In this document: positions 8,321-28,498 of the stretch, piece after piece
Layout of the letters: the number at the start of each line of letters is the position of its first letter
Position numbering within the stretch: position 1 is the stretch's first letter
Source: Candidatus Dormiibacterota bacterium
GTDB taxonomy: Bacteria; Vulcanimicrobiota; Vulcanimicrobiia; Vulcanimicrobiales; Vulcanimicrobiaceae
Assembly (NCBI GenBank): GCA_035532835.1
Contig: DATKQG010000072.1
Coordinates: forward strand, 1 to 35,629
DNA: 35,629 bases
Direction: 5' to 3'
Notes under the pieces: generated by a model
What the model was told of the DNA's origin: nothing
The model's database searches: none
What the model saw: only the letters and a program-made list of their open reading frames with translations
Translations under genes and position numbers: made by a program

Positions 8321-9550
8321 GTGAAGCGCATTGAAACCGTGCGACTCTACCCGACCGCCACTCAAGACGCGGCGCTTCACCACGCGCTCCATGTCACGCG
8401 TCATCTTTACAACGCTGCGCTCCAGCAGCGTAAAGACGCCTATCGGCTGCGTGGTGTGAGCGTCTCGATGAAGATGCAGTATGCCGAGGTGACCGCGCTG
8501 CGCAAGGACTCGCATCACCTGGCGGGCGTTTTTCGTGAGTGCGAGGATGCGGTGCTGCGCCGCCTGGATCTCGCTATGCAGGCCTTCTTTCGGCGATGCA
8601 AGCAGGGCGAAACGCCAGGCTTCCCGCGCTTCAGGGCTGCCCGCCGGTGGCGGCAAATCACCTACCCACATGGCGATCGCGCGCTGAAGTTCGATGCGCC
8701 GCAGCACCGCGTCCGAATTGCGGGCGTAGGTAGCGTGAAGCTGCGTAAGGGGCGCGCCGTGCCGCCGCATGGCCGTGCGTGGCTGGCCTGCAAGCTCGGG
8801 CGCTGGTATGCCCAATTCGAGTGCGAGCGCGCGGTCGAGCCTTTGCCGGAAACCGGGCACGCGATTGGGCTCGATCGCGGTGTGAACGTCTTGCTAGCAA
8901 CCAGCGATGGTGGGCTGATCGCGAATCCGCGTCATGTCACGAAGGCACGGCTGCGCGTTGAGCGGGCGCAGCGCGTGGTTGCCAAGCGTAAGCGGCGCGG
9001 GAAGAACCGGCGTAAGGCGATTGATTCGCTCGCGCGCCTGCACGAGAAGGTCGCCCGGCAGCGCCGTGACTACGCGCACAAGGTCTCACGTAAGCTCATC
9101 GAAGCGAACGACGTGTTGGTGCTGGAAGACTTGCGACTGCGCCATATGGCGCGCAGCGCAAAAGGCACCATCGAAGAACCCGGCCGCAAGGTTGCGGCAA
9201 AAGCCGGGCTGAATCGGGCGCTGCTCGATGCGGGCTTTGGCATGATCGCGCAGTTGATTGCGGAGAAGGCTGAAAGCGCCGCCCGCACGGTTCTCTGCGT
9301 AGATCCGAAGTACACCTCGCAAACGGGCGCCGCGTGCGAGCATATTGCAAAAGGGAATCGCTCGGGGCTGCAGTTCGCCTGTGTCGCGTGTTCGCACGTC
9401 GATCATGCGGACGTGAATGCCGCGCGAGTGATTCTTCAGCGGGCTCAGAAGGGGCCCTTGGCGAGCTGCGCCGCAGTGGCGGACGGCACCGACCCAAGAA
9501 CCGCGCTAGCGCCGAGTGGACCTCGGCTCACGCTGCACGATGCAGCGTGA
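8321..9550 (+). CDS. tnpB: TnpB, IS200/IS605 family RNA-guided nuclease/transposase accessory
   Basis: This is a 409-residue OrfB/TnpB protein. The N-terminal helix-turn-helix-like part (KRIETVRLYPTATQ, then GFPRFRAARRW) is followed by a split RuvC nuclease. The acidic residues are D185 in IGLDRGVN, E269 in LVLEDLRL and D364 in DHADVNAA, so the catalytic triad looks intact. The zinc finger is unusual: C339, C354 and C357 are present, but the first Cys of the usual C-x-x-C pair is Gly336 (SQTGAAC). TnpB proteins use an omega RNA made from the 3' end of the element to cut DNA and keep the element in place. Start is GTG; no ribosome site is clear. The C-terminal 35 residues are low in family similarity and overlap the candidate right end. 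Confidence 0.93.
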   Translation: MKRIETVRLYPTATQDAALHHALHVTRHLYNAALQQRKDAYRLRGVSVSMKMQYAEVTALRKDSHHLAGVFRECEDAVLRRLDLAMQAFFRRCKQGETPGFPRFRAARRWRQITYPHGDRALKFDAPQHRVRIAGVGSVKLRKGRAVPPHGRAWLACKLGRWYAQFECERAVEPLPETGHAIGLDRGVNVLLATSDGGLIANPRHVTKARLRVERAQRVVAKRKRRGKNRRKAIDSLARLHEKVARQRRDYAHKVSRKLIEANDVLVLEDLRLRHMARSAKGTIEEPGRKVAAKAGLNRALLDAGFGMIAQLIAEKAESAARTVLCVDPKYTSQTGAACEHIAKGNRSGLQFACVACSHVDHADVNAARVILQRAQKGPLASCAAVADGTDPRTALAPSGPRLTLHDAA

Positions 9551-23695: not shown

Positions 23696-26600
23696 CTATC
23701 GGCGATTCGCGCCGCCGCCTGATGCTCCTTGCAGGCGCAGCTCGATTCGAACCGGCGTATCGGCGGGGTAATCGAGCCGGTCGAGGCGATAACCGCGGCG
23801 CTCCAGGCTCGATTGTTGCGTGCCGGTGGGCCAGGTCACGGTCAGCAAGGAGGGTAGCGCGAACGCGCTCAACGAGCGGCCGGGAGCCGACGCCTCAAGC
23901 GTCACGACGAGCGTATGGGAGCCGGCCGCGAGCTCGTAGGTCTTGTGAAAGCGAACGCCCGCGCTACCAAGGTCCGGCGCGGTATAGTCGCAGCGCAGCA
24001 GGGCTCGGGTTGGATCCGCAGCGTCGAGCGCGCAACGATAGGCGCGGTTGAAGGTCCCGGCTTCCAGCGGGTGCGTGTAGCGGGCGATATAGTCGCGGGG
24101 AGAGGGCGTGGCCGGCGTCTGCACGTCGTCTCGAAACGCTCCGATAGTCGTGAACGCGTTTTTTCCCGAACCGTCGTGCGTGAAGACGAACGCACGCGCG
24201 CCGGCGCCGGGAGCGACGACGACTCGCACGATGCCGTTATCCAACACGTCGTCGCGCGTGCCATCGGCGAGTACGTCGGCGCGGTATGCCACCGCGTGCC
24301 CGTTGGGAACGGTGCGCCAAGTGGGCGCAATCGGTGCCGGTGTCACCGGCGAGGCCGATTCGGCTTGGAGTTGCGCAACGGTCCCGTCGGCTCGGATGCG
24401 CAGATCGACGGCGCCGCCTTCGGGTACGCTCATCGACGGGATGGCGATGCGTCGTCCCGCGAGATCGATCGCCGTTGCAGCGCTCGTGCGTACGGCTGTG
24501 CCCGGGTTCATCACGTCGAGGATGCCCGAGCGGCCGTCCGGTGAAAGCAGTAGCGATGCGTCGGTTATGCCTCCCGTCGAGGAACGAGCGCCCGCCGCGA
24601 GGGCGTCGTTCGCGTTAGCGACAACGATGCCGCCGCGTTCGCGAAATGCGCGGAGCAACGCCACGACGCGCGGCGTGAAGCGCAGCGGAAACCCCGTCGC
24701 GGGAACGATGAGCACGTGCGTCCGGAGCAGATCGCGCAAGCTGTCGTAGCGCAGATCGACCAGGCGGCACGTCAGCGCCAGAGCGCGGCAGCGCTGTTGG
24801 CTCGCGATCGTCAGCGCCGCGAGTTCGGCAACGCGCTGGTTATTCATCAATGCGGATTCATAAGCACTCGTCAGCCACGCGATCGACGCATCGCTACGCG
24901 GCCGGAGCGACGCAAGGTACGTGCCGTATCGTTGCACGAGGTGCCCAAAAGCCGCGGTGGGAGCATAGCGCGGCGACGGCTTGCCCGCACGCGTCAAGGC
25001 CGCATCCCAGGCATACGACCAGTTTGCCCACGGAGCTTCCCATCCGGGCGGATCGAGGGTATCTTGAACCGGAAAATTCACCACGCCGTGCGCGCCTTGC
25101 TGCAACATTTGATGCAGCGCGAGCGTGGTATTTTCGGGAGCGGCGGGACGCGGCGCGATTTCGTCGGCGCCTTGAAGCCAGCCGGCTTGGAATTCGCTCG
25201 TCATCACGGGCCGGCGAGATTGGGTCTGCAGAAGTCCGGTTGAAAACGCCAACTGCGCGAGATCGTGGTCGCCGATGCGATAGGCGTCGCTCTGGTACCA
25301 GTTACCCCACGCCCACACGGGCGCGGAAGCGGTGACCTTCATCTGATACGTGTTGATAAACAGCGGGACGTGCGTGCCAACGGTTTGTTGCACCGTCGTC
25401 TTGAGCCAACTCATGTATGCGTGCCAATGGGGAGCCGGCCAGGTGTCGTTGTCGATGTATGCGCCCTGGTCGTCGTCGAGCGCGACCGCGATCACGTCGT
25501 GCGACCACGGGGCAATCTCGTGGAGGACCAAATGCAGCCATGCGGCGGCCGCGCGGAGATGCGTGCCGTTGCGTAACCACTCGGCTGCTGCGGCGTCGGC
25601 ATGCGCATTTTGCAGCGTTGCGGTGGCCGGGTACCGGCCTTGCAGAATATCGTGGAGGGGCATATCGTATGCGGGTTGCTCGAGCAGCCAGGCGGGATAG
25701 CCGCCGTTGCGCCACTCGTTGCGAATCACGGGGCCGGGCCGAACGATCGCCTTCAGTCCGAGTCCGTGAATGATGGAAAAGAGCGCCGGGAGATTGCGGC
25801 GCGGGTCGGTCTTTCCGGTAAAATCGATCGTATGCCGGTTCGGCTCGTGCCAATTCCAAATGAGATAGAGATCGATCGTGTTGATGCCCATCGCTTTGTA
25901 TGCTAGGAGATCGCTTCGCCACTGCGAGCGCGGCGTACGCTCGTAGAAGAAGGCCGCACCATAGACGAAGAAAGGTTTGCCGTCGACTTGGAACTCCGGC
26001 GTGCCGCCCTGTTGAACGATCGCCGACGTATGCCACGTTTGCCATCCGCCTGATGCGGCGCGAGCGTGCAGCGGTACGACGAGAAGCGCGAGCAGTAGGC
26101 CCGCAACGAACGGCCACGCGCGCTGCGTACGGGCGAGAAGCACATATGCGAGAATGCCGATTGTCAGCCAACCCATGCCGAGTGCCAACGCGGTAAAGCC
26201 GGTGTACCATAGCGCGAGCGACCACCCCGCCAGCGCGACGAGCGACGGCAGCGGGTACAGCGGCATCCGAAACGGCGCTGCCGGATCGCGCCGTCGCAGC
26301 AACGCGAGCCCGAAGATTTGCGCGATACTTTGGATCAACACGATGCCCGCCGTCAGAAACGCGATCACTTGATCGAGTGAGAAGAAGCTTGCCACGAGGG
26401 AGAGGGCACCGACGGCGAGCAGCGCGCGATGAGGAAAGTCCTTGCTCGCATGCAATTTGGCAAAATACGGTAAGAACGTTCCTTCGCAAGCCGCCGCATA
26501 GGGTATGCGAGAGAATCCGAGCAAGTTTCCGTAGAGGGACGCAAACGCGGTCACGAGCACGAGCACGGTGCAGATGCGCGCCGCAAGGACACCCCAAGTT

Positions 26601-27442
26601 CGCTCGACGACCAACGCTCCCACGTACATGGCCTGCGCGGTCGGTTGACCGTGCGCGTCGAGTAGCGAACGCCAGGGAATGACGCCCAGCACGCCGATCT
26701 GCAGCGCCACGTAGAGCGCGGCGACGATCAGCACCGAGAGGAGAATCGATCGCGGAATCGTGCGGTGCGGGTTCACCACCTCGTCGCCTAGCAGCGCAAC
26801 GTCCGAATATCCACTGTAGTCATAGAGGGTAATGTAGAGCGCCGTTCCAAAACCCGCGAGCAAGCCGGTGCCGATGTGTAGCGGAGCATCTAGATGAAAG
26901 ACCGTCGCGAGATGCGCGTGCGGAAGCGCTGCGACGATGATAAAGGCCAGCGTCGAAATCGCCGCGACGGCCAAGACGATCCCGGTGATCGCGACGCGTC
27001 GCGTCTTGCGGTAGAGTAACGCGATGGTGGCGAGGCCGACTGCTAACGCCACCGCATCGTGCAGCCACCACGACGCACCGATCGCCGGGACGAGATAGGC
27101 TGCGTAGTTGGCGAAGCCGATGTACCCGCTCGCCAGCAAACAGGGCGCCGCGAGCAAGAACTGCCAATTAAAGAGAAAGGCCAGCGCGCGCCCGAGCCGC
27201 TGGGGTCCGTAAGCCTCGCGCAGGTATGCGTACGTGCCGCCGGAGCCGGGAACGCGGGAGGCCAACTCCGCCCACACGAGGCCGTCGCACAGCGCGACGA
27301 CCGCTCCGCCGATCCAACCCAGGAGCGCCAGCGGCCCCCCTAGCGCGGAGATCACCAACGGAATCGTTACGAGCGGCCCGATACCGATCATCGTGATGAC
27401 GTTGAGGGCGACGGCACCGCGAAGATCGATCGCTCGTTGCAT
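23696..27442 (-). CDS. APC-family permease fused to GH35-like glycoside hydrolase
   Basis: One uninterrupted 1248-residue frame. Residues 1-437 are an APC-superfamily permease with 12 likely helices; TM1 carries the broken-helix GIGP motif (ALNVITMIGIGPLVTIPLV), and there is a typical GLVWAELASRVPGSGGTYAYL segment. Residues 441-462 (RAWPFVAGLLLALLVVPLHA) are a thirteenth hydrophobic segment that looks like a signal sequence. Residues about 480-820 match the GH35 beta-galactosidase TIM barrel: NTIDLYLIWNWHEP, IVRPGPVIRNEWRNGGYPAWL (568-585 region) and the nucleophile motif TSEFQAGW (E750). The acid/base region reads ALDDDQG (654-660) instead of QIENEYG. Residues about 860-960 resemble a GATase-like trimerisation domain, and the C-terminal 200 form beta-sandwich-like sequence. 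With 13 helices and an inside N-terminus the hydrolase would lie outside the cell membrane. Sugar substrate and permease substrate are unknown. Confidence 0.85.
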   Translation of the reverse strand: MQRAIDLRGAVALNVITMIGIGPLVTIPLVISALGGPLALLGWIGGAVVALCDGLVWAELASRVPGSGGTYAYLREAYGPQRLGRALAFLFNWQFLLAAPCLLASGYIGFANYAAYLVPAIGASWWLHDAVALAVGLATIALLYRKTRRVAITGIVLAVAAISTLAFIIVAALPHAHLATVFHLDAPLHIGTGLLAGFGTALYITLYDYSGYSDVALLGDEVVNPHRTIPRSILLSVLIVAALYVALQIGVLGVIPWRSLLDAHGQPTAQAMYVGALVVERTWGVLAARICTVLVLVTAFASLYGNLLGFSRIPYAAACEGTFLPYFAKLHASKDFPHRALLAVGALSLVASFFSLDQVIAFLTAGIVLIQSIAQIFGLALLRRRDPAAPFRMPLYPLPSLVALAGWSLALWYTGFTALALGMGWLTIGILAYVLLARTQRAWPFVAGLLLALLVVPLHARAASGGWQTWHTSAIVQQGGTPEFQVDGKPFFVYGAAFFYERTPRSQWRSDLLAYKAMGINTIDLYLIWNWHEPNRHTIDFTGKTDPRRNLPALFSIIHGLGLKAIVRPGPVIRNEWRNGGYPAWLLEQPAYDMPLHDILQGRYPATATLQNAHADAAAAEWLRNGTHLRAAAAWLHLVLHEIAPWSHDVIAVALDDDQGAYIDNDTWPAPHWHAYMSWLKTTVQQTVGTHVPLFINTYQMKVTASAPVWAWGNWYQSDAYRIGDHDLAQLAFSTGLLQTQSRRPVMTSEFQAGWLQGADEIAPRPAAPENTTLALHQMLQQGAHGVVNFPVQDTLDPPGWEAPWANWSYAWDAALTRAGKPSPRYAPTAAFGHLVQRYGTYLASLRPRSDASIAWLTSAYESALMNNQRVAELAALTIASQQRCRALALTCRLVDLRYDSLRDLLRTHVLIVPATGFPLRFTPRVVALLRAFRERGGIVVANANDALAAGARSSTGGITDASLLLSPDGRSGILDVMNPGTAVRTSAATAIDLAGRRIAIPSMSVPEGGAVDLRIRADGTVAQLQAESASPVTPAPIAPTWRTVPNGHAVAYRADVLADGTRDDVLDNGIVRVVVAPGAGARAFVFTHDGSGKNAFTTIGAFRDDVQTPATPSPRDYIARYTHPLEAGTFNRAYRCALDAADPTRALLRCDYTAPDLGSAGVRFHKTYELAAGSHTLVVTLEASAPGRSLSAFALPSLLTVTWPTGTQQSSLERRGYRLDRLDYPADTPVRIELRLQGASGGGANRR

Positions 27443-27457
27443 CGAAGCCTAGTTCGC

Positions 27458-28498
27458 ATGCACCAAACGTCTCCCTACGCGCGCTTACAGGGCTTGAGCG
27501 GCGATCTCCACGTCGATTTCATCGAAAGTGCGGCCTTGCGCGGCAACGCTTTGGGCGACCCGGCGGTACGGCCGTCGATCGTCTACGTTCCGCCCGGGTA
27601 CGATCCGCAGGGCTCGCAGCGCTATCCCGTGCTGTACTGTTTGCACGGATATACCGGCGATGCGGCGGCGCTGCTCGCGACGCGTCCGTGGGAGACCAAC
27701 GTCGTGCAGTGGGCCGATCGGCTAATCGTCAAAGGCGAGATGCGGCCCGCCATCGTCGCTTTGGTTGACGGATTCACGCGTTTGGGCGGGTCGCAGTACG
27801 TCGATTCGGCGCACAACGGTGCGTACGCGACCTACGTCGTTCGCGACGTAGTGGGCCATATCGACGCCTCGTATCGGACGATTGCGCGAGAGGGTGGCCG
27901 CGCGGTCTTCGGCAAGTCCTCCGGCGGATTCGGTGCGATGCACCTCTCGATCGCGCACCCCGGTATCTTTGCGGCATTTGCGTCGCACAGCGGAGATGCC
28001 TACTTCGAATACGCGCACCCGCGCGGATTCGCCGACGCGCAACGAACCCTCGAACGCTTCGATTTCGATCTCAAACATTTCGTCGAAGATTTCGAGGCGC
28101 GGCATAAACGTTCGCAGGCCGAGTACGGCACGATGGAAATGCTCGGATATGCCGCCGCGTATTCTCCGCGCTCCGGTGCTGCGTTCGACATCGATCTGCC
28201 CTTCGATCGCGCCACGGGTGCCATCCGCCAGGACGTCTTCGCGCGCTGGCTGGCGTTCGATCCGGTCCGGCGCATCGGTTCGAGCGTGGCGGAACTGCAG
28301 CGCTTGCGGCTGCGTTACCTCGATTGCGGTCGCCGCGACGAATATGGCCTCGATATCGGTGCGCGTTTGGTCGCGACCGGCCTCCGGAACGCCGGGCTTT
28401 CGGTCGTGCACGAGGAATTCGACGACGACCACCGCAACGTGGGGTACCGTTACGCCCGTTCGCTCCCGCTGCTCGCAGCCGCTTTGGATATAGAATGA
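27458..28498 (+). CDS. Putative alpha/beta-hydrolase esterase (esterase D-like)
   Basis: The 346-residue product belongs by pattern to the putative esterase family (Esterase D, S-formylglutathione hydrolase, enterochelin esterase): SIVYVPPGYDP, YPVLYCLHGYTGD (oxyanion segment), the nucleophile elbow GKSSGG (Ser154), DCGRRDEY for the acid and DDDHRN for the His. No signal peptide. The start at 27458 is 15 bases from the divergent fusion gene start; an ATG at 27437 would overlap that gene. It is followed by a secreted protein gene with ATGA overlap, so they are coupled. A role near a sugar hydrolase, such as deacylation of sugars, is only a guess. Confidence 0.82.
   Translation: MHQTSPYARLQGLSGDLHVDFIESAALRGNALGDPAVRPSIVYVPPGYDPQGSQRYPVLYCLHGYTGDAAALLATRPWETNVVQWADRLIVKGEMRPAIVALVDGFTRLGGSQYVDSAHNGAYATYVVRDVVGHIDASYRTIAREGGRAVFGKSSGGFGAMHLSIAHPGIFAAFASHSGDAYFEYAHPRGFADAQRTLERFDFDLKHFVEDFEARHKRSQAEYGTMEMLGYAAAYSPRSGAAFDIDLPFDRATGAIRQDVFARWLAFDPVRRIGSSVAELQRLRLRYLDCGRRDEYGLDIGARLVATGLRNAGLSVVHEEFDDDHRNVGYRYARSLPLLAAALDIE

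Follow-up and report, generated by a model that had tools for sequence, protein, structure and literature searches.

An APC-superfamily permease fused to a GH35-type enzyme through a predicted internal signal peptide in a family of Eremiobacterota

In one family of the uncultured phylum Eremiobacterota, a permease of the APC superfamily and a GH35-type enzyme are encoded by a single gene, in which the tail of the permease runs directly into a predicted signal peptide. Computation establishes that the parts are fused, that this fusion is old and conserved, that the enzyme faces outward, that the predicted cleavage site is conserved and which residues occupy the active site; actual cleavage, catalytic activity, a substrate and a coupling to transport are inferred. 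The reading considered here to have about an even chance of being correct is that the gene encodes a fused precursor that is cleaved into an exo-glycosidase of the periplasm and a permease that takes up what this enzyme releases, or a related solute. Each part is a member of a known superfamily. In the open-access literature, no description of an APC permease joined to a glycoside hydrolase was found, and to that extent the statement of an earlier, sequence-based note that no system of this design had been described is borne out.

The gene lies on the minus strand of the window, that is, the whole stretch of 35,629 nucleotides that was analysed, which belongs to a MAG of 2.89 Mb. It is a single frame of 1248 codons (27442-23696) that starts with an ATG at 27442, ends with a stop at 23696-23698 and contains no internal stops. 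The first module (residues 1-445; 26108-27442) is a permease with 12 transmembrane segments (TMs) that ends in its native tail, R-x-x-R-x-W-P-F. It was delimited by Pfam (AA_permease_2, residues 11-417, E 5.9e-33), PDB sequence matches, fold and the ends of standalone relatives. Then come the h- and c-region of the internal signal peptide (residues 446-462; 26057-26107; VAGLLLALLVVPLHARA), which were recognized by family comparison and carry a predicted signal peptidase I site, A460-R461-A462, just before A463. The remainder is the GH35-type enzyme, which is predicted to be exported (residues 463-1248; 23699-26056) and was identified by Pfam, by PDB sequence and fold matches and by an AF2 model. 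Within it, the model, Pfam and an hhalign alignment with canonical GH35 place a catalytic TIM barrel at about residues 480-820 (24983-26005), while the model and the invariant columns define C-terminal alpha/beta and beta domains (residues 821-1248; 23699-24982) with an invariant Cys pair, C885/C892, that may form a disulfide. The match to Glyco_hydro_35 (PF01301; residues 484-592, E 1.9e-33) is above the cut-off, spans only the first third of the model and is shared by 56 of the 56 aligned family members. Thus, the uninterrupted frame and the Pfam domains confirm one gene with the order that had been proposed, permease and then GH35-type enzyme. The join itself also stands, although family comparison moves it slightly from the proposed base 26122 (residue 441) to residue 445/446, at about base 26107.

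Next to the fused gene there is a divergent PF00756 esterase (27437-28498, plus strand), whose true start is probably downstream of the TTG at 27437; a signal peptide is not visible in it. In most relatives with conserved gene order, such an esterase adjoins the GH gene, whether this is fused or standalone. Elsewhere, the window encodes an IS605 OrfB/TnpB-type protein with a Cas12f-like TNB domain (8321-9550, plus strand) and a protein in which two stretches match an aspartyl protease domain (PF13650; 12548-14164, minus strand).

The same domain order was searched for in 99 genomes of the same Eremiobacterota family, with separate copies scored at E <= 1e-60; some further genomes were cut by contig ends. 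A fused ORF that spans both parts is present in 49 of the 99, distributed over 20 genera, and the identity among its members is about 47-61%. None of the genomes with an intact fused ORF carries a separate copy at that threshold. Both parts are found as separate genes in 20 genomes and both are missing from eight, and permease-only and GH-only genomes also occur, which indicates that coupling between enzyme and permease is not obligatory. One genome has two different fused copies (L125, 935-4846; L126, 2708-7165). In a scan of genome contigs, all 46 loci belonged to Candidatus Eremiobacterota/Vulcanimicrobiota or to MAGs labelled only as 'bacterium'. The recurrence of the fused ORF across these genomes and genera excludes chance, an assembly error or a frameshift at the join. 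In effect, the idea that an assembly or sequencing error united two genes is extremely improbable, as the identical join is seen in independent MAGs from 20 genera, at 49-61% identity. Nothing was found in its favour, and the one broken relative has frameshifts, with an ambiguous base at the break.

The earlier note had counted relatives with two separate genes as evidence against a true fusion. Such relatives do exist, in the 20 genomes mentioned above, but the 49 fused genomes and the basal branches of the permease tree speak for it. The root of this tree was set with six relatives, from Novosphingobium, Sphingomonas, Gemmatirosa, Streptomyces and Embleya. Each of the three basal Eremiobacterota branches contains fused members, and the tree requires at least five changes of state. 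Consequently, the separate state is most simply secondary, and the simplest reading of the sequences would be one old fusion with several later separations, with repeated fusion as the alternative. The GH gene, whether fused or alone, often keeps the same genomic position: aroA flanks it on one side, and on the other lie the divergent esterase and the genes for cystathionine gamma-synthase and cystathionine beta-synthase. The separate permeases mostly lie away from this locus. In the split loci, tblastn found no permease remnant upstream of standalone GH genes and no GH remnant downstream of standalone permeases. Two permeases from another family of the same class (f3; L107 and L108) nest within the permease-only clade of the family studied here, which suggests transfer between families.

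The join follows the native C-terminal tail of the permease, R..WPFA. In most separate permeases, the stop comes a few residues after R..WPF(A); in the fused proteins, R..R.WPF stands directly before a hydrophobic stretch of about 15 residues, which leads into a small-residue motif. Among 48 fused proteins, 92% have A-x-A in the c-region; as a background value, 30% of the 14-residue windows taken over the whole permease part contain this motif. In addition, the standalone GH of genus g33 begins with MPIRRLIRALLALALLLFPLHARA and continues with ASG (...FPLHARA, then ASG), and the window protein is close to it, with VAGLLLALLVVPLHARA and then ASG. Together, the native tail, the hydrophobic stretch, A-x-A and this GH start identify the thirteenth hydrophobic segment as the signal peptide of the enzyme, as had been suspected, and the permease tail as its charged part. 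All the elements of an internal signal peptide are present: a charged n-region, a short h-region, a c-region with A-x-A and signal peptidase I in the genome. Expression of the enzyme as a second gene from an internal start was also considered and seems unlikely, as no conserved internal start is evident in the sequences of the relatives that were compared.

The topology of the protein is indicated by the charges of its predicted loops. In the window protein, 20 Lys and Arg are found in 95 inside residues versus 2 in 65 outside residues, and in 33 fused relatives the counts per 100 loop residues are 21.3 inside versus 3.6 outside. These charges place the C end of the permease inside and the enzyme outside, so its outward orientation, another proposal of the earlier note, is upheld. 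The invariant C885 and C892 fit an oxidising compartment and, thus, an exported enzyme. Three genes for signal peptidase I and one for an Omp85 protein are present in the source genome, so the enzyme would be expected in a periplasm. By contrast, the lasting tether of the catalytic part that had been envisaged is doubtful, because the segment ends in a conserved signal peptidase I site; on this sequence evidence, the enzyme is probably freed by signal peptidase I rather than tethered, and cleavage is considered about two-thirds likely.

According to the proposed mechanism, the permease module would insert co-translationally with both its N and C ends inside. Its Arg-bearing tail, R..R.WPF, would then act as the n-region of the internal signal peptide, which would direct the translocation of the GH35 module through the membrane. 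Cleavage at A-x-A, between A462 and A463, would probably be carried out by signal peptidase I, yielding a free periplasmic exo-glycosidase and a permease in equal amounts. The sugar that the exo-glycosidase removes would be a terminal, beta-linked one, with an amino sugar such as glucosamine as the likeliest candidate; the permease would import this product or a related solute.

As for the permease, it has both the AA_permease profile and the fold of the APC superfamily. Its nearest solved structures, by sequence and fold, are BasC, xCT and LAT1, and Foldseek retrieves the light chains of LAT1-CD98hc. A TM5 Lys is conserved in LATs (Lys154 in BasC, whose role is described in PMC6472337); here it aligns with the invariant Ala161. 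The nearest permease relatives found outside the phylum are six matches in plasmid records (E < 1e-30), from few organisms. Relatives with 38-46% identity lie beside GH92, GH4, GH2, PfkB and RpiR genes, a GH2 with an exo-beta-D-glucosaminidase Ig domain, GH65 together with a HAD protein, and ROK regulators. The neighbours are RpiR, PfkB, GH4, GH2, GH92 and a TonB receptor in Novosphingobium, and RpiR, a carbohydrate kinase, GH4, GH92 and a TonB receptor in Sphingomonas. In these sphingomonad operons (L147, L148), an APC permease of the same subfamily accompanies RpiR, a PfkB kinase, GH4 and GH92, which is an unusual transporter for a glycan-use operon. In Streptomyces, the permease has a convergent GH65 gene and a HAD-family protein (phosphatase/mutase-type) nearby; two Embleya records have a divergent ROK protein (regulator) beside it. 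These carbohydrate genes make a sugar-related solute the probable cargo, and the neighbourhoods point to a carbohydrate-linked APC subfamily. They also render doubtful the amino-acid cargo that the earlier note had considered.

A sugar-related cargo is estimated to be about two-thirds likely and glucosamine in particular about one-third likely. The strongest individual clue to glucosamine, or to a related amino sugar, comes from Gemmatirosa, where a secreted-looking GH2 with an exo-beta-D-glucosaminidase Ig domain lies directly downstream of the permease relative (L150, 8725-11076), as its predicted activity equals that of the fused GH35 even though the family differs. Glucosamine catabolism is not evident in the source genome, where a NagB-like match is weak and below the cut-off, and the immediate neighbours of the fused gene are transsulfuration and housekeeping genes rather than sugar genes.

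The structure prediction is confident for the enzyme part (787 residues, pLDDT 89.4, pTM 0.90, from a 56-row alignment) and matches GH35 enzymes. By both sequence and fold, the best PDB relatives are archaeal exo-beta-D-glucosaminidases (5gsm, 8oug, 5gsl and 6jow) and a GH35 beta-1,2-glucosyltransferase. In its second half, the barrel has diverged beyond the reach of the Pfam GH35 model, and a PDB sequence search with this half found no match. The hhalign profile alignment with canonical GH35 of the same phylum pairs LDDDQGAY with VENEYGSF and SEFQAGW with SEFYPGW. E750 (25193-25195) thus occupies the nucleophile position, after strand beta7. After strand beta4, where canonical enzymes have the acid/base Glu in ENEYG, the enzyme has instead Asp658, in LDDDQG; such a change from Glu to Asp is unusual in clan GH-A. 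The preceding residue, D657, is also Asp, while beta-galactosidases have Asn at this position. In GlmA, the equivalent Asp178 binds the C2 amino group, and the D178N variant is inactive (PMC6566704). Across 78 relatives, free-standing enzymes as well as fused ones, D656, D657 and D658 (25469-25477) and E750 do not vary, and E576, Y526 and the surroundings of the active-site residues are invariant or nearly so. The enzyme falls outside the GlmA family of NCBIfam (NF041127), with 109 bits against a cut-off of 1500. Because of the unusual acid/base Asp, catalytic competence seems likely from these residues but is not assured, and D658 may make the activity low or different.

If cleavage fails, the protein would be an uncleaved, single-chain analogue of the animal heteromeric amino acid transporters, such as LAT1-4F2hc, with the outside TIM barrel held on an extra helix as a lid, a stabiliser or a tethered enzyme. 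This is a somewhat doubtful possibility. The order of the parts is equal, a LAT-like permease, one membrane segment and an extracellular glycosidase-fold domain, and the closest solved sequences include, besides BasC, the light chains xCT and LAT1, the latter also by Foldseek. However, the signal peptidase site is conserved, the hydrophobic stretch is short with Pro/Gly near the site, and the parts occur as separate genes in 20 genomes. The full-length AF2 model (pTM 0.53), with low confidence in TM13 and the linker (pLDDT 44-56), shows no confident packing between domains and lends no support to a rigid assembly, but it is compatible with packing as well as with its absence. Moreover, the outside domain is of GH35 type and not the GH13-like domain of SLC3, so any likeness to 4F2hc would be convergent. 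It is unlikely that, in such a convergent counterpart, an attached GH35 domain with a live active site hands its (amino-)sugar straight to an undescribed, carbohydrate-carrying APC subfamily.

There is also a small likelihood that the GH part has lost its hydrolase activity and acts by binding sugar or as a structural element. The presence of D658 at the acid/base position in 78 of 78 relatives would fit this, as would the divergence of the second half of the barrel from the Pfam model and PDB sequences. Nevertheless, decayed active sites usually drift, and here the active-site residues and their surroundings are (nearly) invariant. Similarly improbable is a passenger arrangement, in which reasons of expression alone have brought a secreted glycosidase and an amino acid permease into one gene, without functional coupling. 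In its favour, 20 genomes encode the parts as separate, unlinked genes, and some genomes have just one of them. Against it, the fusion persists in 20 genera, and glycosidases also adjoin unrelated relatives of the permease. The cleaved precursor, if correct, would unite import and outside digestion in one gene, in at least 20 genera of a little-known group of soil bacteria, and the split and fused states inside one family offer a natural comparison. It would also bring in a predicted APC subfamily, with the motif GxGP[FL]xTIP, that carries sugars or amino sugars and not amino acids, and a predicted GH35 clade with an Asp as acid/base.

Several known systems resemble parts of this arrangement. 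FbcH of Bradyrhizobium is a cytochrome b/c1 precursor that is cut at an internal signal peptide. It is likewise a membrane protein and an exported protein made as one chain, although it belongs to a respiratory complex and is unconnected with sugar transport. The SLC7/BasC L-amino acid transporters share the 12-TM APC fold and about 25% identity and are the closest solved structures; in contrast to them, the permease described here has the TM1 motif GxGP[FL]xTIP, Ala161 for the LAT Lys and relatives beside carbohydrate genes. FrlA is an APC permease of a glyco-amino acid and works with the PfkB-type kinase FrlD. The permease has weak matches to FrlA, far below the FrlA cut-off, and a fused or exported glycosidase is absent from that system. 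The archaeal exo-beta-D-glucosaminidases are the best sequence and fold matches of the enzyme, which has the Asp before the acid/base position, as in GlmA (Asp178), and the Tyr and Glu of the -1 subsite. Unlike them, the enzyme has Asp for the acid/base Glu and a nucleophile motif of beta-galactosidase type, SEFxxGW, is predicted to be exported and is fused to a permease. Finally, LAT1-4F2hc and b0,+AT-rBAT combine a LAT-like permease, one TM and an outside TIM barrel of glycosidase fold, but as two disulfide-linked chains with a GH13-like fold, whereas here there is one gene, a GH35 fold, a conserved active site and a predicted cleavage site. The fusion also offers a convergent comparison for the old question of why a glycosidase-like ectodomain accompanies the amino acid transporters of animals.
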